From Promicromonosporaceae bacterium (GTDB lineage Bacteria > Actinomycetota > Actinomycetes > Actinomycetales > Cellulomonadaceae), in the NCBI GenBank assembly GCA_009783295.1, contig WRHK01000019.1, positions 1 to 63,618 of the forward strand: a DNA stretch of 63,618 nt, written 5' to 3'. Position numbers and translations under genes: made by a program. This document shows positions 27,359 to 63,618 of this stretch, piece after piece; the stretch's first letter is position 1; the number at the start of each line of letters is the position of its first letter. The notes beneath the pieces were generated by a model. It had not been told where the DNA came from. It searched no databases and saw only the letters and a list, made by a program, of their open reading frames with translations.

Positions 27359-27817
27359 TCAGCGCGCGGAGCGCTGGGCCTCGTAGGCCGTCATCTCGTC
27401 GATGCGGCGCTGGTGGCGGGCGTCGCCGCTGAAGGGCTCGGCCACGAACGCGTCGACGATCGCCGTCGCCTCCTCGACCGTGTGCATGCGGCCGCCGACG
27501 GCCACGACGTTGGCGTCGTTGTGCTGGCGGCCCAGCTTCGCCGTCTCGAGCGACCACGCGAGGATGGCGCGGATGCCCGTGACGCGGTTGGCGGCGAGCT
27601 GCTCGCCGTTGCCCGAGCCGCCGATGACGATGCCGAGCGAGCCCGGCTCCGCGACGACGGCCTCGGCCGCCGAGATGCAGAACGCGGGGTAGTCGTCCTG
27701 CGCGTCGTAGACGTGGGCGCCGTGGTCCACGACGTCGTGACCCTCGGAGCGCAGGTGCTCGACGAGGTGGTTCTTGAGCTCGAATCCGGCGTGGTCGGTG
27801 CCGATGTGAAGACGCAT
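27359..27817 (-). CDS. rpiB: ribose-5-phosphate isomerase B
   Basis: 152 aa enzyme of the RpiB/LacAB family that interconverts ribose-5-phosphate and ribulose-5-phosphate. The phosphate-binding and catalytic loop IGGSGNGEQLAANRV has Glu72 in place of the catalytic Cys of E. coli RpiB, as in the mycobacterial enzyme. MRLHIGTDHAGFELK at the N-terminus and QRRIDEMTAYE at the C-terminus fit that subgroup. The ATG at 27817 opens the homology; CAGAAT six bases upstream may be a leaderless -10. First gene of the rpiB-nei-atl unit. Confidence 0.93.
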   Translation of the reverse strand: MRLHIGTDHAGFELKNHLVEHLRSEGHDVVDHGAHVYDAQDDYPAFCISAAEAVVAEPGSLGIVIGGSGNGEQLAANRVTGIRAILAWSLETAKLGRQHNDANVVAVGGRMHTVEEATAIVDAFVAEPFSGDARHQRRIDEMTAYEAQRSAR

Positions 27818-27885
27818 GGGTTCATTCTGACCCAGCCCGCGGGCCCCCGTGACCGGTCGTCCGCCCACGCCGTGCCGTGCGCCCG

Positions 27886-27891
27886 TAAGGT
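27886..27891 (+). promoter_or_regulatory. -10 element, probable leaderless promoter of the M13 peptidase gene
   Basis: TAAGGT 7 nt before the ATG at 27899, no Shine-Dalgarno. Confidence 0.45.
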
Positions 27892-27898
27892 GGCGGCC

Positions 27899-29899
27899 AT
27901 GACCACCGAAGCTCTGAGGTCCGGCATCGACCTCGCTGCCCTGGACCCCGCGACCCGCCCGCAGGACGACCTGTACCGGCACGTCAACGGCGCGTGGCTC
28001 GCGACGCACGAGATCCCCGCGGACCGCGCGATGGACGGCTCGTTCATGAAGCTGCGCGACCTCTCCGAGGAGCGGGTGCGCGACGTCATCACGGACCTGG
28101 CGGCCACGCCGTCGGACGAGCAGACCGGCACCGCCGCCCAGATCGGCGCGCTCTACACCTCCTTCATGGACACCGACCGGATCGCCAGGTTGGGCGTCGC
28201 GCCGCTCGCTGCCGACCTCGCGCTGATCGCGGGCACGACGTCGCAGGCCGAGCTCGTGGGCGTGCTCGGCGCGCTGCAGCGCACGGGCGGCGGCGGCGCC
28301 GTCGGGCTGTACGTCGACAACGACGCCAAGGACCCGGAGCAGTACCGCGTCTACCTGTACCAGTCCGGCCTGGGCCTGCCGGACGAGGCGTACTACCGCG
28401 AGGACGCGTACGCACCGATCCTGGCCAAGTACGCGCCGCACGTCGCACGCATGCTCACGCTGGGCGGCGCTGCGTCCGTGCTGGGGATCGACGCCGACGA
28501 CGCCGCCGCCCGCGTCGTCGCACTGGAGACCAAGCTGGCCGCCCACCACTGGGACGTCGTCAAGGACCGCGACGCGACCCTCACCTACAACCCGACGACG
28601 CTCGCCGACCTGGCCGCCTCCGCGCCCGGGTTCGACTGGGCCTCGTGGGCCGCCGCGCTCGGCGCCCCGGCCGGCGCGCTCGACGCGCTCGTGGTGCGCG
28701 AGCCGTCGTTCGCCGAGGGCCTGGCGGAGCTGTGGAAGTCCGAGCCGCTGGCCGACTGGCAGGCCTGGGCCGCGTACCGCCTGGTCAGCGCCCGCGCCCC
28801 GTACGTCACCGACGAGGTCGTCGAGGCCAACTTCGACTTCTACGGCCGCACCCTCTCCGGCGCGCAGGAGGTGCGCGAGCGCTGGAAGCGCGGCGTCGCC
28901 CTGGTCGAGGGGGCGCTCGGCGAGGCCGTGGGCGAGCAGTACGTGGCGCGGCACTTCCCGCCCGCGCACAAGTCGCGCATGGACGAGCTCGTCGCGAACC
29001 TCGTGGCCGCCTACCGCGAGTCGATCCAGAGCCTCGACTGGATGACCGACGAGACCAAGGTCAAGGCCCTCGCCAAGCTCGACAAGTTCACGCCCAAGAT
29101 CGGCTACCCGGTCACCTGGCGCGACTACTCGGCGCTGGTGATCGACCCGGCCGACGTGGTCGGCAACGTGCGCCGCTCCAACGCGTTCGACCTGGACCGC
29201 GAGCTCGGCAAGGTGGGCAAGCCCCTGGACCGCGACGAGTGGTTCATGACCCCCCAGACCGTCAACGCGTACTACAACCCGGGCATGAACGAGATCGTGT
29301 TCCCCGCCGCGATCCTCCAGCCCCCGTTCTTCGACCCGGAGGCCGACGACGCCGTCAACTACGGCGGCATCGGCGGCGTCATCGGGCACGAGATCGGCCA
29401 CGGGTTCGACGACCAGGGCTCCAAGTACGACGGCGACGGCCGCCTCGAGGACTGGTGGACGTCGCTCGACCGCGAGGAGTTCGAGAAGCGCACGGCCGCG
29501 CTCGTGGCCCAGTACGACGCGTTCGTGCCGGAGCAGCTCGGGCCCGACGGCGCGCACGTCAACGGCAGCCTCACGATCGGCGAGAACATCGGCGACCTGG
29601 GCGGCCTCTCGATCGCCATCACCGCCTACCGCCTGGCGCTGGGCGGCTCGCTCGACGCTGCACCCGTGGTCGACGGGCTGACCGGCCTGGAGCGCGTGTT
29701 CCTGGGCTGGGCGCAGGTGTGGCAGTCGAAGGGCCGCGACGAGGAGGTGGTGCGCCGCATCGCCACCGACCCGCACTCCCCCAACGAGTTCCGCTGCAAC
29801 GGCGTGGTGCGCAACGTGGACGAGTTCCACGACACGTACGGGGTCAAGGACGGCGACGCCCTGTGGCTGGCCCCGGAGGACCGCGTCCGGATCTGGTGA
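27899..29899 (+). CDS. pepO: M13-family zinc metallopeptidase (PepO/neprilysin type)
   Basis: 666 aa. The N-terminal M13 domain starts DDLYRHVNGAWLATHEIPADR; the zinc site HEIGH is at 497-501 (GHEIGHGFDDQG) and the third ligand Glu562 lies in GENIGDLGG. The NAYYNPGMNEIVFPAAILQPPFF segment and the C-terminal RCNGVVRNVDEFHDTYGV are also conserved. There is no signal peptide or anchor, so it acts in the cytosol on oligopeptides, unlike secreted neprilysins. Its 3' end converges on a secreted-domain protein gene across the first 20-bp repeat array. Confidence 0.95.
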   Translation: MTTEALRSGIDLAALDPATRPQDDLYRHVNGAWLATHEIPADRAMDGSFMKLRDLSEERVRDVITDLAATPSDEQTGTAAQIGALYTSFMDTDRIARLGVAPLAADLALIAGTTSQAELVGVLGALQRTGGGGAVGLYVDNDAKDPEQYRVYLYQSGLGLPDEAYYREDAYAPILAKYAPHVARMLTLGGAASVLGIDADDAAARVVALETKLAAHHWDVVKDRDATLTYNPTTLADLAASAPGFDWASWAAALGAPAGALDALVVREPSFAEGLAELWKSEPLADWQAWAAYRLVSARAPYVTDEVVEANFDFYGRTLSGAQEVRERWKRGVALVEGALGEAVGEQYVARHFPPAHKSRMDELVANLVAAYRESIQSLDWMTDETKVKALAKLDKFTPKIGYPVTWRDYSALVIDPADVVGNVRRSNAFDLDRELGKVGKPLDRDEWFMTPQTVNAYYNPGMNEIVFPAAILQPPFFDPEADDAVNYGGIGGVIGHEIGHGFDDQGSKYDGDGRLEDWWTSLDREEFEKRTAALVAQYDAFVPEQLGPDGAHVNGSLTIGENIGDLGGLSIAITAYRLALGGSLDAAPVVDGLTGLERVFLGWAQVWQSKGRDEEVVRRIATDPHSPNEFRCNGVVRNVDEFHDTYGVKDGDALWLAPEDRVRIW

Positions 29900-29940
29900 C
29901 GGCGCCGGCCGGGGCCTGCCCCGGCCGTTGCCCTTGCCCC

Positions 29941-30070
29941 GCGAGATAGAGCCGGCGCCCGCGAGTTAGTGCCGACGAGCGCGAGATAGAGCCCCGGCCT
30001 GCGAGTTAGCAGGCGGGGGCTCTAGCTCGCGGGCGAGGGCTCTATCTCGCGGCGCTGGGCTCTATCTCGC
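29941..30070. repeat. array A of 20-bp-phased inverted repeats
   Basis: Seven copies of the word GCGAGATAGAGC (variants GCGAGTTAGTGC, GCGAGTTAGC, GCGAGCTAGAGC) in the gap between two convergent genes. Forward copies start at 29941, 29961, 29981 and 30001; inverted copies start at 30019, 30039 and 30059: exactly 20 bp apart within each set. At the centre, 29981-30002 pairs with 30009-30030 (20 of 22 bp) around a 6-nt loop GAGTTA. No ORF, no IS ends. It could act as a bidirectional terminator, a protein-binding array or a mobile REP-type element. Confidence 0.85.
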
Positions 30071-30084
30071 GGGGGTCGGGGTCG

Positions 30085-31410
30085 TCAGAACTGGCCGATG
30101 CCCGCTCGGGCCACCGTGAAGCCCTTGCCGGACTTGTCGTCCTTGCACTCCATGCCGGTCTGCGCGCTGTTGCACGTGAACTGGCCCTGCGTCACCGACT
30201 GCCCGTAGGCGAGCTTCTGCACGTCCGGGCCGGCCTTCGCCGGCTGCTGGGCGGCCGGCACGCACGGCAGGCTGACCTTGCCCGTCGCCGCGTCGATCGA
30301 CACGACGTAGCCGACCGTGCCGTCGCACCCGTCGACGGGGGCCGGCTGCTGGTTCAGGTCGGCGATCTTGCACGACACGTTCGTGCTGGTGATCGAGCAG
30401 GTGATGTTGCCGGTGGGCGAGGCGAACGTCGCCAGGGTGGTGCCTGCGGGCGCGGGAGCGCTCGCCGAGTCCGACGGCGTGCTCGCGCCGGTCTGCCCCG
30501 ACGTCGCGCCGTGGGCGCTCGGGGCACTCGGCCCGGTGAGCAGGTGCACGGCGAAGACGCCGATGGCGACGAGCAGCACCACGGCGAACGCCGTGAACGC
30601 GATCCGCCCGGCTGACACGCGACGACGACGGCCGCCCTCGGCCGGGGGCTCGGCATACCCGGCGGGCGCGTAGGCGGGCTCGGCGTAGCCGCCGGGCTGG
30701 TAGGCGGGCTCGGCGTAGGCGGGCTGCGTGTACGCCTGCTGCTGCGGCGGGTACGACGGCTGCGGTGCGTAGGCCTGCTGCGGCGTGCCGTAGCCGGGCG
30801 CGTACGACGCCGGCGGGACGGCGGGCGGCGGGGACGCCGGGGCCTCCTGCGCGTCGGCGGCGGCCGTGAACCAGTCGTCGTCCTGCGCCGGGGCGGGCGC
30901 CGCCTGCATCGGGATCCCCGAGCGGGGCATCGGCGGGGCGGGCTGCGGGGCGGCTGCCGCATAGGCGGATGTCGGGCCGGACGAGCGCGCCATGCGCGCG
31001 GCCGCCGACACGCGCGCCACCGTGGGCGGCGCGGCGGGCGCGGGCGCCGGGGCCGGGGCCGCGGGGGCAGGCCCGGGCGCCGGCGGGATCGGGGCGTGGA
31101 CGGTGGGCTGCGGCACCACGGGCGACTGCAGCACGGTGGGCTGCGCGACGGGCGCCTGCAGCACCGTCGGCTGGCCCCCGCCTGGCTGCGGAACCACCGG
31201 CTGAGGCACGACGGGCGGCGGCACCACGGGCTGCGGCACCACAGGCTGCGAGACAGCCTGCTGCGGTGCCGTGGCCTCCTCCGCGAACGGGTCGAACGCC
31301 TGCGTCGGCGTCTCGTCGTCCCACTCGCGAGCGGCCGGCTGCGACGGGGTCGGGGCCGGCGGCGGAGGCGGCGGGGGCGGCACGTGACCCGGGTCGTGAG
31401 CTTCGGGCAT
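30085..31410 (-). CDS. proline-rich single-pass membrane protein with extracytoplasmic domain
   Basis: 441 aa. Residues 1-285 form a disordered Pro/Ala/Gln-rich cytoplasmic region with repeated QPVVPQP-type and YAEPAY-type motifs; a basic RRRRVSAGR stretch leads into one membrane segment (IAFTAFAVVLLVAIGVFAVHLL). Outside the membrane a Ser/Thr-rich linker precedes a domain with four to five Cys (NITCSITSTNVSCKIADLN, GCDGTVGY, SLPCVP, FTCNSAQTGMECKDD) that likely form disulfides. No named family is recognised. The ATG at 31410 has GGAGGGAG upstream. Composition suggests a cell-envelope or scaffold role. Confidence 0.75.
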   Translation of the reverse strand: MPEAHDPGHVPPPPPPPPAPTPSQPAAREWDDETPTQAFDPFAEEATAPQQAVSQPVVPQPVVPPPVVPQPVVPQPGGGQPTVLQAPVAQPTVLQSPVVPQPTVHAPIPPAPGPAPAAPAPAPAPAAPPTVARVSAAARMARSSGPTSAYAAAAPQPAPPMPRSGIPMQAAPAPAQDDDWFTAAADAQEAPASPPPAVPPASYAPGYGTPQQAYAPQPSYPPQQQAYTQPAYAEPAYQPGGYAEPAYAPAGYAEPPAEGGRRRRVSAGRIAFTAFAVVLLVAIGVFAVHLLTGPSAPSAHGATSGQTGASTPSDSASAPAPAGTTLATFASPTGNITCSITSTNVSCKIADLNQQPAPVDGCDGTVGYVVSIDAATGKVSLPCVPAAQQPAKAGPDVQKLAYGQSVTQGQFTCNSAQTGMECKDDKSGKGFTVARAGIGQF

Positions 31411-31692
31411 CGGGTACTCCCTCCGAGCATGGACCGGCGCACAACGGACAAGGTGGGCGCGCCGGGTCGCGCCGCAGCGCACCCGGGGCAGGATGCCACG
31501 TCACCCTGTGCAGAGTCGAACGTGGCCCGCTGACCAGGAGTTCCGGGCCGGTCGTCGTGGCGCTCCGGTGCCGCCGCACCTCCCCGCACGGCAGGCCGTG
31601 GTGAGAGGATCCCCAGGGGGTCGCGCGACGTCGTGACCCCCGGAGCGTCGTCGGCGGGCACCCGCCCGCCGCGCAAGAACGAGGGAGAACCC

Positions 31693-34281
31693 GTGCCCGG
31701 ACAGAACCTGACCCGCGCCGAGGCGGTCGCGCGCGCCGGCGTCGTGACCGCCGTCGAGTCGTACGCCATCGCGCTCGACCTGACCACCGGACCCACGACG
31801 TTCGGGTCGACGACGACCATCCGTTTCTCCGCGACGGAGGGCGGGAGCACGTTCCTCGACCTGGTGGCGCCGACGGTCCGCTCGGTGACCCTCAACGACC
31901 GCGAGCTGGACCCGGCCGAGGTGTTCGCCGACTCGCGCATCACGCTGTCGGGCCTGGCCGCGGAGAACGTCGTCACGGTGGTCGCGGACTGCGCGTACAC
32001 GAACACGGGCGAGGGCCTGCACCGGTTCGTCGACCCGGTCGACGGTGAGGTCTACCTCTACACGCAGTGCGAGGTGCCGGACGCCCGCCGCGTGTTCGCC
32101 ACGTTCGAGCAGCCCGACCTCAAGGCCACGTTCCAGGTCACGGCCACCGCTCCCGCGCGCTGGCAGGTGGTCAGCAACCAGCCGACGCCGGAGCCGGTCG
32201 CCGCGCCCAGCAGCGTCGTCGTCGTCGACGGCAAGGACGCCGAGCCGACGGCCACGTGGACGTTCGAGCCGACGCCGCGCATCTCCACCTACCTGGTGGC
32301 GCTCGTGGCCGGGCCGTACGCCGTCGTGCGCGGGGGCCTGACCAGCACGGACGGACGCGAGATCCCCCTCGGGGTGTTCTGCCGCGCGTCGCTGTCGCAG
32401 TACATGGACGCCGACTACGTCATGGAGGTCACGCGCAAGGGCTTCGCGTTCTACGAGGAGCTGTTCGCCTACCCGTACCCGTTCGACAAGTACGACCAGC
32501 TGTTCGTGCCCGAGTACAACATGGGCGCGATGGAGAACCCGGGCGCGGTCACCTTCACCGAGGCGTACGTGTTCCGCGGCTCCGTGCCCGACGGGCGCAA
32601 GGAGCGCCGCGTCGTGACGATCCTGCACGAGCTGGCCCACATGTGGTTCGGCGACCTGGTCACCATGAAGTGGTGGAACGACCTGTGGCTCAACGAGTCG
32701 TTCGCGGAGTTCGCCTCGACGCTCGCCACGGCCGAGGCCACCGAGTGGACCGAGGGCTGGACCACGTTCGCGGCGTCGGAGAAGACGTGGGCGTACCGCC
32801 AGGACGCGCTGCCGTCCACGCACCCGATCGTCGCCGAGATCGGCGACCTCGAGGACGTCTACACGAACTTCGACGGCATCACCTACGCCAAGGGCGCCTC
32901 GGTGCTCAAGCAGCTGGTCGCCTGGGTGGGCCGCGACGAGTTCATGCGCGGGCTCGCCGCGTACTTCCGCAAGCACGCGTTCTCCAACACCGAGCTGCGC
33001 GACCTGCTGGTCGAGCTCGAGGCCACGAGCGGCCGCGACCTCGAGTCGTGGAGCGCGGCCTGGCTCGAGACGGCGGGCACCAACACGCTCGCCCCGTCCC
33101 TGACGGTCGACGACGCCGGCGTCATCACGTCGTTCGAGATCGTCCAGACGGCCCCCGCCGACCACCCGACGCTGCGCCCGCACCGCATGGGCGTCGGCTA
33201 CTACGCGCTCACCGGGTCGGGCGCCGTCGAGCGCACCCACCAGGTGATCATCGACGTCGACGGGCCCGTCACGTCCGTCCCGTCGCTCGTGGGCACCGAG
33301 CGCCCCGGGCTGATCCTGCTCAACGACGAGGACCTCGCGTTCGCGAAGGTGCGCCTCGACGCCGACTCGCTCGCGTTCGCCGTCGAGCACCTCGGCGCCA
33401 TCACCGACTCCCTGGCGCGCGGGGTCATCTGGGGCTCCGCCTGGGATGCCGTGCGCGACGCCGAGGCGCCGGCGTCGTCGTTCGTGGACCTGGTGCTCAA
33501 CAACGTGTCCGCGGAGACGGAGTCGACCACCATCACGATGGTGCTCGCCCAGCTCGGCACGGCCTCGACCGTGTACGCCGACCCGGCGCAGCGGGCGTCG
33601 CAGTCGACGCGCGTCGCCGACGCCCTGTGGGCGCTCGCGACCGCCGCGCCGGCGGGCACCGACCTGCAGCTGCAGCTGCTGCGCGCGTTCGCCGCACAGG
33701 CCACCGGGCCGGAGCACGCCGCCGCGCTGCAGGGCGTGCTCGACGGGTCCGTGGCGCTCGCGGGCCGCGAGATCGACACCGACCTGCGCTGGGACCTGCT
33801 CCAGGGCGCTGTCGCGCTCGGCGCTGCCGGCGAGGCGGAGGTCGAGGCGGCGCTCGCCGCCGACGACACCGCGACGGGCCGCCAGGCCGCGGCGCGCGTT
33901 CGCGCGTCGGCCCCGACGGCCGAGGCCAAGGAGGCCGCGTTCGCCTCGATCGTGGACGACGCCGACGCGCCGAACGCGATCATCCGCGCGACGGCGGCCG
34001 GCTTCCGCCGCGTCACGTCGCCGGACCTGCTGGAGCCGCTGGTCACCCGCTACGTGGAGGCGCTGCTGCCCGTGTGGGAGTCGCGCAGCTACCAGATGTC
34101 CGAGGAGCTCGTCGAGGGCCTCTACCCGGCCCCGGTCGCGTCCGAGGCGCTGGCGGCGGCGGTGCGGACGTGGCTGGACGCCCACCCGGACGCCGCCCCG
34201 GCCCTGCGCCGCATGGTCACGGAGAACCTGGCGGACACGGAGCGAGCCCTCCAGGCCCAGGCGGCCGACGCCGCGAGATAG
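31693..34281 (+). CDS. pepN: aminopeptidase N (M1 family)
   Basis: 862 aa zinc exopeptidase that removes N-terminal residues from peptides. The exopeptidase motif GAMEN is at 278-282, the zinc site HELAH at 312-316 and the third ligand Glu335 (LWLNESFAEF). The C-terminal ERAP1-like helical domain is complete. The GTG at 31693 (with GAGGGAG 6-7 nt before it) was chosen over an upstream in-frame ATG. The stop codon TAG at 34279-34281 is part of the first unit of repeat array B (GCG-AGA-TAG), so the last residues come from the repeat. The leader contains the inverted repeat GGGGGTC/GACCCCC at 31616-31641. Confidence 0.95.
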   Translation: MPGQNLTRAEAVARAGVVTAVESYAIALDLTTGPTTFGSTTTIRFSATEGGSTFLDLVAPTVRSVTLNDRELDPAEVFADSRITLSGLAAENVVTVVADCAYTNTGEGLHRFVDPVDGEVYLYTQCEVPDARRVFATFEQPDLKATFQVTATAPARWQVVSNQPTPEPVAAPSSVVVVDGKDAEPTATWTFEPTPRISTYLVALVAGPYAVVRGGLTSTDGREIPLGVFCRASLSQYMDADYVMEVTRKGFAFYEELFAYPYPFDKYDQLFVPEYNMGAMENPGAVTFTEAYVFRGSVPDGRKERRVVTILHELAHMWFGDLVTMKWWNDLWLNESFAEFASTLATAEATEWTEGWTTFAASEKTWAYRQDALPSTHPIVAEIGDLEDVYTNFDGITYAKGASVLKQLVAWVGRDEFMRGLAAYFRKHAFSNTELRDLLVELEATSGRDLESWSAAWLETAGTNTLAPSLTVDDAGVITSFEIVQTAPADHPTLRPHRMGVGYYALTGSGAVERTHQVIIDVDGPVTSVPSLVGTERPGLILLNDEDLAFAKVRLDADSLAFAVEHLGAITDSLARGVIWGSAWDAVRDAEAPASSFVDLVLNNVSAETESTTITMVLAQLGTASTVYADPAQRASQSTRVADALWALATAAPAGTDLQLQLLRAFAAQATGPEHAAALQGVLDGSVALAGREIDTDLRWDLLQGAVALGAAGEAEVEAALAADDTATGRQAAARVRASAPTAEAKEAAFASIVDDADAPNAIIRATAAGFRRVTSPDLLEPLVTRYVEALLPVWESRSYQMSEELVEGLYPAPVASEALAAAVRTWLDAHPDAAPALRRMVTENLADTERALQAQAADAAR

Positions 34282-34382
34282 AGCGCGGCCCCGCGAGATA
34301 GAGCCCGAGCCCGCCAGTTAGAGCCCGCGAGCGCGAGATAGAGCCCAGGAGCGCTATCTCGCGCTCCTGGGCTCTATCTCGC
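34273..34382. repeat. array B of 20-bp-phased inverted repeats
   Basis: Forward units of GCGAGATAGAGC start at 34273, 34293, 34313 (variant GCCAGTTAGAGC) and 34333; inverted units start at 34351 (variant) and 34371, again 20 bp apart. The centre is a perfect inverted repeat, 34333-34354 with 34361-34382 (22 bp; 23 with the flanking base pair), loop TATCTC. The first unit overlaps the end of pepN. As with array A it lies between convergent genes. Confidence 0.88.
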
Positions 34383-34402
34383 GGGGACGGGTGGCGCCGG
34401 GC

Positions 34403-37400
34403 TCAGCCCAGCTGGCCCACCTCCGTCGGCGTCAGCGCCCGGTTGAACAGCCGGACGTCGTCGATCGCGCCGTGGAAGAAGTCCGTCGGGTTGCCCTGGT
34501 ACTGGGCTCGCCCGATCGTCACCTTCCCGGTGCTGACGTCCGTGCCGTGGGCCGTGACGCTCGACTGGAGCACGCCGTCGACGTAGAGCGACGCCGTGCC
34601 GGCCGCCGCGTCGCGCACCCCCACCAGGTGGTACCACTGCCCGATCACCGGAGTGATGCCGGTGGCGACGGCACGCGGGGAGTTCCACACGCTGAACGCG
34701 AACCCGTGAGCGCTCTGGCTGGTGGGCACGTACTGGAGGAAGAACGGGCTGCTGCCGCCCAGCCCGTCGGTGGCGACGGCGGACTGGAACCCGCCGCCGA
34801 CGGCGTCGAGCCGCACCCACGCCGACACCGAGTAGCTCGCCGTGGTGTCGAGCTTCGGCACGGTGGCCGTGGCCTGCGCCGTCGTGCCGTTGCCGAGCAG
34901 CGCCTGGCCGCTCGCCTCGTCGCGCCCGGCGGTCAGCGTCGCGCCGCCCGAGAGGGTGGCCGGGCTGCCCGGGTTCCCCTTGCCGTGGCCGTCGAGGTCC
35001 GGCGTGACGCCGTTGGCGTCGACGCCGTCGAACGACCAGGCCGCGATCCCGGCCATGCCGGGCGTGCCCGGCGGGACCGGTGCCCCGGCCCCTGCCGCGA
35101 TGACGGCCAGGTTGGCCGCCCGCACGCGGGCCGCGTCCATCTTCAGCACCGCGCGGTCGTAGGTGAAGAACCCGTTGTGCTCGCCCTCGACGTCCGTGAG
35201 CTGGGTGTACACCGAGCCGGAGAGCTGGCCGCGCGCGAGCCCGATGAGCTCCGCCGTGTTCGCCACGTAGTCGTCCGTGAGCTGTTGCGACGTGCCGACC
35301 TCGCCGTACGGGTTCACGGACCCGCCGGGCCACGAGTGCCCGACGACGGTCAGCGAGTACCCGCCGTGCTCGCCGTCGATCGCGGCGCGGGTGGCGTCGG
35401 GCGACGGGGTGGCCGGGCCGGTGTACACGTGCCAGTCGATGATGTTCCCGGAGTTGGTGTCGCCGGGGATGTCGCAGCAGTTGAGGCCGCTGCGCGTGTC
35501 GACGAGCCGCGACGGGTCCTGCGCCTTGATCGACGCGGCGACGGCGGCGGCCTGCGGGATGCCCCACTGGCCCCAGCCCTCGTTGAACGGGATCCAGCCG
35601 ATGATCGACGTCGTCGAGATGTGCTGGTCGATGACGCGGTGCAGCTCGGACTGCCACTCGTTCTGCTGGTCCACCGTGGCGTTGGTGCCCGAGGGCATGT
35701 CCTGCCAGACCATCATCCCGAGCTTGTCGGCGTCGTAGTACCAGCGCGCCGGCTCGACCTTGATGTGCTTGCGGATGGCGTTGAAGCCGAGCGCCTTGGT
35801 CTGCTTGATGTCCCAGGCGAGCGCCTGGTCCGTCGGCGCGGTGTAGATGCCGTCGGGCCAGAAGCCCTGGTCCAGGGTGGCGAGCAGGAAGGTGGGCTTG
35901 CCGTTGAGCACGATCCTGCTGATCCCGCCCACCTGGGCGATCGCGATGGACCGGATGCCCACGTACGAGCCGACCGTGTCGACGCTGCTGCCGTCCGTGA
36001 GGGTGGCCGAGAGCGTGTAGAGGTACGGGTCGTCGGGGGTCCAGCGGTGGGCGTGCGGGATCGGCAGGCTCAGCGCGGCGCCCGGCGTCCCGCTCACCGT
36101 CCCGACCAGGCCGCCCGAGGCGTCGCGCGCCTGCACCTGCACGCTCGCGCCCGACGACGCCGCCGCCGAGCTCACCGTCACGGACACCGAGTCGCCGGAG
36201 TCGGACAGCACGGGCGTCAGCTTGAGCGAGTCGACGTGCGCGGCCGGCACGGGCTCCATCCACACCGTCTGCCAGATGCCCGACGACGCCGTGTAGAAGA
36301 TGCCGGACGGGTTCGCCGACTGCTTGCCGCGCGGCTGGTCGCCGGTGGTGTCGGTGACCTGCACGACCAGGTCGTTGGTGCCCGCCTTGAGCACCGGGGT
36401 CAGGTCGGCGCTGAAGGCGTCGTACCCGCCGGTGTGCGAGACCACCTTGACGCCGTTGACGTACACGTCGGTCTGGTAGTCGACCGCGCCGAACTGCAGC
36501 ACGAGGCGCTGCTGGCCGGCCCCGGTGCCCACGTGCCACGACGCCGGCACGGTGAACGTGCGGTGGTAGGCGAAGTGGTCGTAGTGCTTCTGGATGCCGG
36601 AGAGCTTCGACTCGATCGGGTACGGGACGACGACGCTCGGGTCGCCTGTCCAGCTGGTGGGCACCGGGCTGTCCGCTGCGGCGAGGGGCGCGAAGTCCCA
36701 CCGGCCGTTGAGGTTCTGCCACTGGGTGCGCGTCAGCTGGGGTCGCGGGTACTGCGGCAGCGGGTTGTCCGGGTTGACCTTGCTGGTCCACTGCGTGGAG
36801 AGCGAGTAGGTCGAGCCGTTGAGGACGCGGCCCGTGAACCGCCCGGCCGGCTGGCCGCCGATCGCGAGGGACCCCTGCCCGTCGTACACGACGATCACGG
36901 TCGAGCCCTGCGTGACCTGCGCCCCCAGCTCGATCGTCACCTGGTCGGCGCCCGGGCCGGCCTGGACGGACGTGATGGGGAAGCTCGAGCCGTCGACGTT
37001 CAGCTTCAGGTGCGCGGCCAGGTCGGACGTGCCCGAGACGGCGTCGGCGAAGGTCAGCACGGCCGACTGCCCGTCGGCGGCCACCTGCGCGGACTCCGGC
37101 GTCGGCACGAACCCGGCCGGCGGGGTGAACGCCGCGTCGGGGACGTACTGCTTGGCGACGCCCGCGTTCGCGGACTCCCAGCTCACGTGGATGTACGAGC
37201 CGCCGGTGTTCTGGAACATCTCGAACCGGAACGGGACGGGCTCGCCGGCGGTGAGGTGCACGGTGTGCGTGGCCGTCTGCTCCTGGTCCCACTTGTCGAC
37301 CCAGAAGTCGATGAGCTGGTCGGCGGCGGACGCGGTGGCCGCGCCGGGGCCGACCCACAGCCGGAACCCGTTGTCGCCGATCGCCGAGAACGTGTAGTCG

Positions 37401-37765
37401 CCGGTCGCGGGGGCAGTGATGAAGCCTGTCCAGCGCGCGCCCGTCTGCGTGTCCTGGCCCGTGAGCGCACGCCACGCGGGCAGCAGGTCCGGGACGTTGA
37501 CGCCCGGGTCCAGCACGGTCGCCTTGAGGTTCGCGTCGTCGAGGGCGAACGTGCTCGTGTTCGTGATCGTGTAGTAGTCGCCGCGCAGGCCGCTCAGCGC
37601 GGTCGCGTCAGCGGGCGCCGCTGCTGGGGGTGGGGCTGCTGCGGTGGCTGCCGCTCCCGCGGGCGGCGCGGTCAGCCCGGCCGTCAGGAGCGCCAGGACT
37701 GCGGTGCCCACGACGGCGAACGGGCGCCACCGGAGGCCGGGAGAGATCGTGCGCTGAACCATCAC
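34403..37765 (-). CDS. secreted multidomain glycoside hydrolase, GH2 family
   Basis: 1120 aa. Signal peptide at residues 1-40 (VVGTAVLALLTAGLTAPPAGA). Next a PA14 domain (about 55-215: LRGDYYTITN ... GGSYIHVSWESA), an immunoglobulin-like region, then the GH2 sandwich, immunoglobulin and TIM-barrel domains (about 345-890) and a C-terminal LamG-like carbohydrate-binding domain (about 905-1120: SYSVSAWVRLDAV ... HGAIDDVRLFNRALTPTE). Probable acid/base Glu729 (IPFNEGWGQWG); the nucleophile is probably Glu860 or Glu862 (TQLTDVEGEHNGF). The substrate is likely a beta-galactoside, beta-glucuronide or related plant glycan. A LacI/CebR-like operator lies upstream. Confidence 0.9.
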   Translation of the reverse strand: MMVQRTISPGLRWRPFAVVGTAVLALLTAGLTAPPAGAAATAAAPPPAAAPADATALSGLRGDYYTITNTSTFALDDANLKATVLDPGVNVPDLLPAWRALTGQDTQTGARWTGFITAPATGDYTFSAIGDNGFRLWVGPGAATASAADQLIDFWVDKWDQEQTATHTVHLTAGEPVPFRFEMFQNTGGSYIHVSWESANAGVAKQYVPDAAFTPPAGFVPTPESAQVAADGQSAVLTFADAVSGTSDLAAHLKLNVDGSSFPITSVQAGPGADQVTIELGAQVTQGSTVIVVYDGQGSLAIGGQPAGRFTGRVLNGSTYSLSTQWTSKVNPDNPLPQYPRPQLTRTQWQNLNGRWDFAPLAAADSPVPTSWTGDPSVVVPYPIESKLSGIQKHYDHFAYHRTFTVPASWHVGTGAGQQRLVLQFGAVDYQTDVYVNGVKVVSHTGGYDAFSADLTPVLKAGTNDLVVQVTDTTGDQPRGKQSANPSGIFYTASSGIWQTVWMEPVPAAHVDSLKLTPVLSDSGDSVSVTVSSAAASSGASVQVQARDASGGLVGTVSGTPGAALSLPIPHAHRWTPDDPYLYTLSATLTDGSSVDTVGSYVGIRSIAIAQVGGISRIVLNGKPTFLLATLDQGFWPDGIYTAPTDQALAWDIKQTKALGFNAIRKHIKVEPARWYYDADKLGMMVWQDMPSGTNATVDQQNEWQSELHRVIDQHISTTSIIGWIPFNEGWGQWGIPQAAAVAASIKAQDPSRLVDTRSGLNCCDIPGDTNSGNIIDWHVYTGPATPSPDATRAAIDGEHGGYSLTVVGHSWPGGSVNPYGEVGTSQQLTDDYVANTAELIGLARGQLSGSVYTQLTDVEGEHNGFFTYDRAVLKMDAARVRAANLAVIAAGAGAPVPPGTPGMAGIAAWSFDGVDANGVTPDLDGHGKGNPGSPATLSGGATLTAGRDEASGQALLGNGTTAQATATVPKLDTTASYSVSAWVRLDAVGGGFQSAVATDGLGGSSPFFLQYVPTSQSAHGFAFSVWNSPRAVATGITPVIGQWYHLVGVRDAAAGTASLYVDGVLQSSVTAHGTDVSTGKVTIGRAQYQGNPTDFFHGAIDDVRLFNRALTPTEVGQLG

Positions 37766-63528: not shown

Positions 63529-63540
63529 GCGAGATAGAGC
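63529..63540. repeat. single unit of the 20-bp-array repeat at the contig end
   Basis: GCGAGATAGAGC, identical to the forward unit of arrays A and B, followed directly by homopolymers. An array may continue beyond the assembled sequence. Confidence 0.75.
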
Positions 63541-63618
63541 CCCCCCCCCCCCGGAAGAAACGGGCCCCCCTCCCGGGGGGGGGGGGCCCTCCCCCGGGGG
63601 GGGGGGGGCGGGGCGGGG
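63541..63618. other. low-quality contig end
   Basis: Long runs of C and G with almost no A or T (apart from a short GGAAGAAAC), starting exactly after a repeat unit. This is most simply an assembly or sequencing failure at a hairpin-forming array. Confidence 0.7.

Follow-up and report, generated by a model that had tools for sequence, protein, structure and literature searches.

The window, a stretch of 63,618 nucleotides from the draft genome of a Promicromonosporaceae bacterium, carries at 29941-30070 an array of four forward and three reverse copies of a 12-bp word (array A). The gap that holds it is bounded by converging stops, at 29899 (+) and 30085 (-), as had been claimed in a preliminary description of this DNA. 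An M13 peptidase gene (27713..29899, +; domain matches to Peptidase_M13_N and Peptidase_M13) runs into the array, which is entered from the right by the gene of a DUF6636-like protein (30085..31482, -; Pfam match below the cut-off, start uncertain). Between the M13 stop codon and the array, folding predicts a GC-rich hairpin that is apart from the array and has no T-tract (29901..29932, +). By sequence match, the forward words lie at 29941..29952 and 29981..29992 (both exact, GCGAGATAGAGC), at 29961..29972 (GCGAGTTAGTGC, two mismatches) and at 30001..30012, where a degenerate copy recognised by sequence and folding (GCGAGTTAGCAG, four mismatches) forms the tip of the central hairpin. The reverse words, matched on the - strand, lie at 30019..30030 (GCGAGCTAGAGC, one mismatch), 30039..30050 and 30059..30070 (both exact). 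All seven copies thus stand where the preliminary description had put them, several with mismatches; the steps between them are, in order, 20, 20, 20, 18, 20 and 20 bp, so that the uniform 20-bp spacing described there holds inside each half and fails across the centre, where the step is 18. That all units face one side of the DNA is likewise an approximation, 20 bp being about 1.9 turns at the B-DNA helical repeat of 10.5 bp per turn. The central fold with its 6-nt loop is real: as computed, it joins forward copy 3 and the first inverted copy by 21 pairs with two 1x1 mismatches, and it is nested in a longer imperfect hairpin (-150 kcal/mol, z -9.6).

A second array lies in the same window. 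Array B has forward units at 34273, 34293, 34313 (two mismatches) and 34333 (34273..34344, +) and reverse units at 34351 and 34371 (34351..34382, -). The gene of an M1 aminopeptidase (31633..34281, +; start uncertain) runs into it and takes its stop codon from the TAG of the first unit (34279..34281, +), and a glycoside hydrolase family 2-type (GH2) gene (34403..37765, -) enters it from the right. Array B, the stop codon within the word and the orientation rule relative to the gene, given below, go beyond the preliminary description. With up to two mismatches, the window holds 18 matches to the word against 6.7 ± 2.3 in shuffles, and these matches are not due to chance. A lone exact unit near the contig end (63529..63540, +) may be where a third array, truncated by the assembly, begins; from there to its end (63529-63618) the window enters long G and C runs that resemble an assembly error. 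Units or arrays also stand at other contig ends of the host genome (C2:67, C2:138562, C16:92, C66:111 and C86:66, C-numbers denoting contigs). Since assembly may therefore break in arrays, their copy number may be underestimated. A scan limited to 29850-34450, which spans arrays A and B, predicted no T-tract terminator. In 29800-34500, Rfam gave seven matches with E up to 1, all under the gathering scores, and a known RNA family was rejected for this stretch on that ground.

A genome-wide family of arrays

The host genome (G000), a 3.98-Mb draft, contains 190 copies of the exact word and 142 neighbouring pairs of GCGAGNTAGNGC words with an 8-bp spacer. The 855,889 bases examined, window included, yielded 51 clusters with 230 core units between them, and 44 of the clusters are arrays of at least two units; this sample comprised C1 (160 of 176.5 kb), C2, C3 (80 of 115 kb), 20 kb of C4 and the window, together with stretches chosen for holding arrays. 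Five of the 51 clusters were called inside a gene, all of them single copies and one at a contig end. Position counts over the 230 core units, and over 297 units when degenerate ones are included, gave the consensus (C)GCGAG[A/T]TAG[A/C]GC and little information in the middle of the spacer. Within the word, GCGAG is as strongly conserved as TAG, whose third place is A in 0/297 units, i.e. TAA never replaces it. When exact cores were counted with no spacing condition imposed, 118 of 144 same-orientation neighbours less than 200 bp apart lay at 20 bp, and 137 of 144 at multiples of 20. Array A belongs to a family of gene-end arrays that recurs across the genome and is built on the directional 12-bp word GCGAG[A/T]TAG[A/C]GC. 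The preliminary description had raised three possible objections, namely a lack of further copies, irregular spacing in other copies, and conserved spacers that would mark a remnant of one duplicated sequence; the 190 exact copies, their mostly 20-bp spacing and the spacers, which differ in array A and are likewise unconserved elsewhere, speak in the main against all three.

The same properties were followed in G538, a genome of another genus, in 280 kb of stretches chosen around places where a family-wide search had found pairs. Arrays have a median of 7 and a maximum of 14 units in the host, and a maximum of 17 in G538. Where the spacers of neighbouring units are no more than 50% identical, the units themselves still show 88% identity in the host (151 pairs) and 93% in G538 (52 pairs), a contrast somewhat inflated by the admission of units with up to two mismatches, which favours the word side. 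Such retention of words beside diverging spacers is what selection for words on a lattice leaves, rather than the copying of a block. With one base of deviation allowed, the forward and reverse lattices moreover share their phase modulo 10 bp in 25 of the 33 two-orientation arrays of the host, where about 10 (30%) would be expected; in G538 this is so in 4 of 7, which is not significant.

Block copies exist too, namely an 81-bp block repeated in C5 and identical spacers in G538. Such visible duplication would suit a spreading or recombining repeat without cellular function, tolerated at gene ends because the stop codon of the word makes its intrusion harmless, an explanation that we consider unlikely. 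The identity of 88-93% between neighbouring words whose spacers have lost similarity is against it, and further evidence bearing on it is given with the orientation, stop codons and distribution of the word.

Position and orientation at gene ends

Gene calls came from a home-made codon-usage script and not from annotation; some contexts are surely wrong (a gene left of the C61 array was probably missed, and starts are over-long elsewhere). In the C1, C2 and C3 stretches and C19, arrays occupy 12/70 convergent gaps, 2/238 codirectional gaps and 0/71 divergent gaps; the corresponding fractions in G538 are 10/55, 3/147 and 0/54. Orientation, stop codons and folding were counted in the arrays flanked on either side by a called gene, 41 in the host and 13 in G538. 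The 41 comprise 30 in convergent gaps, 9 in codirectional gaps and 2 in gaps called divergent. Both orientations are present in 33/41 arrays of the host and 7/13 of G538, and the one-orientation arrays that make up the rest (8/41 and 6/13) keep the word and the step. By unit order, 26 of the 41 are forward-then-reverse, 3 reverse-then-forward, 8 of one orientation and 4 mixed.

At convergent gaps, most words read the same way as the gene they follow: forward units lie left of reverse units in 418 of 428 opposite pairs in the host and in 220/220 in G538, pairs within one array not being independent. For arrays of both genomes that begin past the natural stop, the leftmost unit is forward in 21/25 and the rightmost reverse in 20/24. 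The orientation rule thus holds where the word supplies no stop codon, which indicates that the word's stop codon does not by itself account for it; a spreading repeat made harmless by its stop codon would not need to face the gene there. At codirectional ends, all 19 units of three arrays in G538 are sense, and the host has 30 sense vs 26 antisense units, which is not clearly sense. An insertion sequence explains one case, and missed genes may account for others.

An IS30-type transposase gene (HTH_38; rve below the cut-off) lies between two array pieces at C1 119491-121176 (loci L006 and L007), and the pieces at 119491 and 121024 look like one convergent array split by an insertion sequence. 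The two arrays in gaps called divergent (C66 5847-6008 and C61 9212-9479), one of which is reverse-then-forward or interleaved, could be promoter-side exceptions or gene-call errors. The neighbours of divergent and mixed arrays, checked by eye for a self-regulated binder, were mostly transport and metabolic genes, with one transposase. An XRE-type regulator lies right of the C1 121024 array, its 3' end towards the array.

Stop codons inside the word

The gene's own stop codon is the TAG of a sense unit in 20 of the 69 array-facing gene ends of the host, where TAG accounts for 116/745 of all stops, and in 8 of 23 gene ends of G538. This frequent use is what a spreading repeat with a harmless end would show. 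The ending AAR of the M1 aminopeptidase is common to G008 and G005, which read CGC TGA there, and in the host it is written AGA TAG within the word. The C-terminal tail of a methyltransferase on C41 is variable among relatives and in the host ends in the word; the array there fills a 185-bp gap, and in three relatives the facing stops are 10, 16 and 20 bp apart (gaps by eye), so that room for a hairpin is absent there. Several relatives share the ending AAR of an HlyIII-family gene, G004 happening to read GCGAGGTAG at this place, and some words may thus have grown from a fitting gene end. Past the HlyIII-family gene of G001 (L209), in the place of the host's 20-bp-step array, a TAG-bearing unit of 16 bp occurs as three direct repeats, beginning at the stop codon; the 12-base unit word had no match in the 200 kb of G001 searched.

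The 20-bp step is not divisible by 3; a row of three words therefore places a TAG in each reading frame, and array A has one in all three on either strand. One may ask whether the arrays are cassettes for translation, in which a three-frame TAG would intercept ribosomes that overrun or shift past the stop, thereby uncoupling translation from transcription at the gene end. The TAG in the core of the word in both genera, the rotation of the frame by the 20-bp step and the real stops in 20/69 ends are consistent with it. We nevertheless regard this as very improbable, because two or three units would be enough for such a task, yet the arrays run to the median and maxima given above; because GCGAG is as conserved as TAG and TAA is never used instead; and because the minus strand of array B offers TAG in two frames only.

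Distribution among relatives and in a second genus

Ten genomes of the same genus, four of them less than 80% complete, contained no tandem pair of the exact or degenerate word. At the M13 junction, inspected by eye, nine relatives have the gene; in five of them it is followed by inverted repeats, plain and GC-rich ones in G001, G005 and G008 and REP-like ones in G004 and G010, and in G002, G003, G006 and G007 by other sequence. Hairpins are found in relatives at some of the other junctions and at others not. Among named records, Xylanimonas oleitrophica and Xylanimicrobium pachnodae come closest to the M13 piece, so that the host probably belongs with them. Of the named relatives inspected (20 loci, again by eye and uncounted), most likewise have GC-rich inverted repeats.

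In a family-wide search, 18 of 221 genomes had at least one degenerate pair: 142 pairs in the host, 102 in G538, 44 in G537 and 24 in G536, these last three being array-dense genomes of another genus, and 1 to 7 in each of the other 14 genomes. An artefact of one species was rejected on account of these three genomes and the smaller numbers in the 14 others. The exact word is held by 142 of 396 genomes of the order, the host included, and by none but the host more than 6 times, which gives the chance level. A phylum sample of 396 genomes, with the host as the one member of its family, gave 232 GAGNTAG pairs at step 20 in the host and at most 2 in every other genome. The 280 kb of G538 contain 13 arrays of the word NCGANGTAGCGC, at step 20 and with up to 17 units; this word, also written CGAnGTAGCGC, is related to that of the host. 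The lattice, the orientation and the stop-codon use therefore recur in genomes of two genera, with different variable bases, and the convergent place and two-way layout reported in the preliminary description extend genome-wide and into another genus.

This patchiness, with the arrays absent from the ten same-genus genomes and dense in the host and in three genomes of another genus, fits a spreading repeat. On the other hand, a search of 10 genomes, host included, found no Y1_Tnp (RAYT) transposase, whereas 5 of 14 control genomes were positive, and the viral contigs searched contained no pair of exact words at a 20-bp step. A mobile REP/RAYT origin is accordingly not supported (Y1_Tnp in 0/10 genomes), and a phage origin was set aside for want of such a match.

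Other repeat rows were met in relatives. G008 has arrays of GATCGGAACGTG in the order forward, forward, reverse, reverse at step 19 (L031-L035), with locus-specific spacers that are complementary between the arms (by eye), and one copy of this word lies at C2 67309 of the host. G001 has one such array of GGTCTGGTCGTCGG, also at step 19, whose spacers are unpaired between the arms (by eye). G010 carries the REP-like GGTGGTTGAGCCTGTCGAAACCACC in rows that often face each other (L061-L070); its first 14 bases have 54 matches with at most one mismatch in 200 kb, and the genome gave no Y1_Tnp match. Gene-end repeat rows with facing halves may be a habit of the family, each lineage having its own word; the de novo repeat scan behind these cases also gave many weak, unrelated repeats, and we claim no rate for facing rows.

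Folding and spacer complementarity

In the host, folding of the 33 two-orientation arrays gave a mean z of -9.3 against 40 shuffles per array, a result expected of any inverted repeat; perfect stems of at least 10 are present in 17 of 30 convergent arrays. The spacers were more informative. In the host, facing spacers are complementary with z 6.1 (26 arrays, free register, 0/500 shuffles as high), and with the register fixed at the centre 17 of 27 arrays have a spacer pair matching at 7/8 or more, against a null mean of 4.3. In G538, z is 0.8 (7 arrays, 105/500 shuffles as high), which is not beyond chance. One-orientation arrays fold no better than shuffles in G538 (mean z -0.17, 6 arrays) and somewhat better in the host (mean z -1.7). 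The variable base of the word agrees between same-side neighbours in 59/85 cases and between facing units in 11/31 in G538 (chance 0.45), and in 103/223 and 50/93 cases, respectively, in the host (chance 0.41); one of the seven two-orientation arrays of G538 was omitted for length from folding and from this test. Same-side units of G538 agree more than facing ones, which suggests that each half evolves as its own row of direct repeats.

These data bear on the possibility that the arrays are bidirectional RNA-hairpin terminators, in which the facing halves pair in either transcript and stop or position RNA polymerase, perhaps together with a head-on collision. We hold this possible, if doubtful. 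The strong folds of array A and of the two-orientation arrays in general, the perfect stems and the spacer complementarity of the host argue for it, as do the plain hairpins at the same gene junctions in several relatives and the complementary arms of the GATCGGAACGTG family of G008. Hairpins in the transcript were moreover described, in an excerpt from a preprint, as positioning termination at head-on polymerase collisions (PMC13082048). The one-orientation arrays cannot pair word with word, however, and the spacers of G538 are not complementary beyond chance while its halves diverge separately. Pairing also requires neither the 20-bp step nor the lattice phase, and no T-tract follows arrays A and B. 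Mycobacterial RNA polymerase reportedly needs a U-tract.

Discussion

Here, we describe a family of gene-end arrays that we tentatively read, with somewhat less than even confidence, as tandem directional sites, each word being bound by a DNA-binding protein and the whole being predicted to stop RNA polymerase. The forward copies face the left gene and the reverse copies the right gene. A putative protein would sit on each word and line up along the 20-bp lattice, and the resulting row might act as a polar roadblock that halts RNA polymerase leaving either gene, so that convergent genes would be insulated from each other's transcripts. In the host species, the two halves could in addition form a long RNA hairpin and thereby perhaps aid in retaining the polymerase, and the TAG found in every frame over three words would also stop a ribosome reading through. 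The basis for this proposal is what can be read from sequence: the word, its step and place, the convergent orientation, the divergence of the spacers, the use of TAG as a stop and the layout in a second genus.

We prefer protein sites because in G538 the spacers do not pair beyond chance and the halves drift apart, because arrays of one orientation exist and because the lattices of the host are in phase; the hairpin would be a supplementary or a competing mechanism, and we hold it only slightly less likely. We count as pointing to a protein the fixed 20-bp step, the phase in the host, the one-orientation arrays, the lack of a T-tract at arrays A and B and the C41 site, where three relatives have no room for a hairpin. 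The cooperative protein binding suggested in the preliminary description is backed by the lattice phase (25/33 arrays) and by the one-orientation arrays, binding itself being a prediction. Several observations count against protein sites: 33/41 arrays are two-orientation and their facing spacers are complementary (z 6.1), as a hairpin would want, and the variable base agrees slightly more between facing units in the host. Plain hairpins lie at the same sites in several relatives, and a separate one precedes array A. Moreover, seven arrays are reverse-then-forward or mixed, the codirectional ends of the host are not clearly sense, the phase is not significant in G538, and 20 bp is not exactly two turns of B-DNA.

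The likely job of the arrays, the punctuation of convergent genes, is already known; their architecture appears to be the new part. We did not find it in the open-licence literature searched by word strings and topic, and a description elsewhere is possible. To our knowledge, no gene-end array architecture of this kind is known. The arrays bear on how high-GC actinobacteria end transcription, and their natural variants (one or two orientations, 2 to 17 units, two genera, related words) form a panel to separate the roles of protein, hairpin and stop codon. If a protein does bind, the arrays would be a general polar terminator; in bacteria, we know of polar terminators only for replication forks. 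Canonical intrinsic terminators are reported, in part of one study, to be scarce in Mycobacterium tuberculosis (PMC10937400).

Several known systems resemble the arrays in part. REP/BIME elements are described, in an excerpt from one article, as short extragenic repeats in high copy, regularly spaced and tied to transcription termination and protein binding (PMC2817692). The array words are likewise extragenic, in high copy (190 exact) and placed between genes. Unlike the palindromic REP/BIME unit, GCGAGATAGAGC is not self-complementary, and the one-orientation arrays of G538 fold like shuffles; nor do the units alternate, 26/41 arrays being all forward and then all reverse. The DNA uptake sequences of Neisseria and Pasteurellaceae, whose role as terminators is debated according to part of one report (PMC2346458), share with the arrays a short directional word, high copy and inverted pairs between genes. 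They are scattered in genes, whereas the array word is found almost only in gene-end arrays at a 20-bp step. Closer in place, in symmetry and, as far as the two-orientation arrays go, in folding are the bidirectional intrinsic terminators of convergent genes. The arrays probably do the same job, but they are modular rows of fixed step, exist in one-orientation versions and have no T-tract at arrays A and B. Within the family, the GATCGGAACGTG elements of G008 and the GGTCTGGTCGTCGG element of G001 resemble the host arrays in their two forward and two reverse units between or near gene ends, and differ in a step of 19, other words, two units per arm and the absence of TAG from the word.

Directional tandem words at about two helical turns are also found in iterons, the Rep-protein sites of about 20 bp, and in rDNA terminator boxes such as the Sal-box bound by TTF-I, which are polar; an orientation-dependent block is the feature of the terminator boxes. 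The arrays differ from both in being chromosome-wide, at ordinary gene ends and in a bacterium, and in that their binding protein is putative. They might be a bacterial, chromosome-wide counterpart of the polar rDNA terminator boxes, in which a putative protein on 12-bp words at 20-bp pitch would form a two-way barrier insulating convergent genes, with gene stop codons taken from the first word; stated in this full form, we regard the parallel as rather unlikely.
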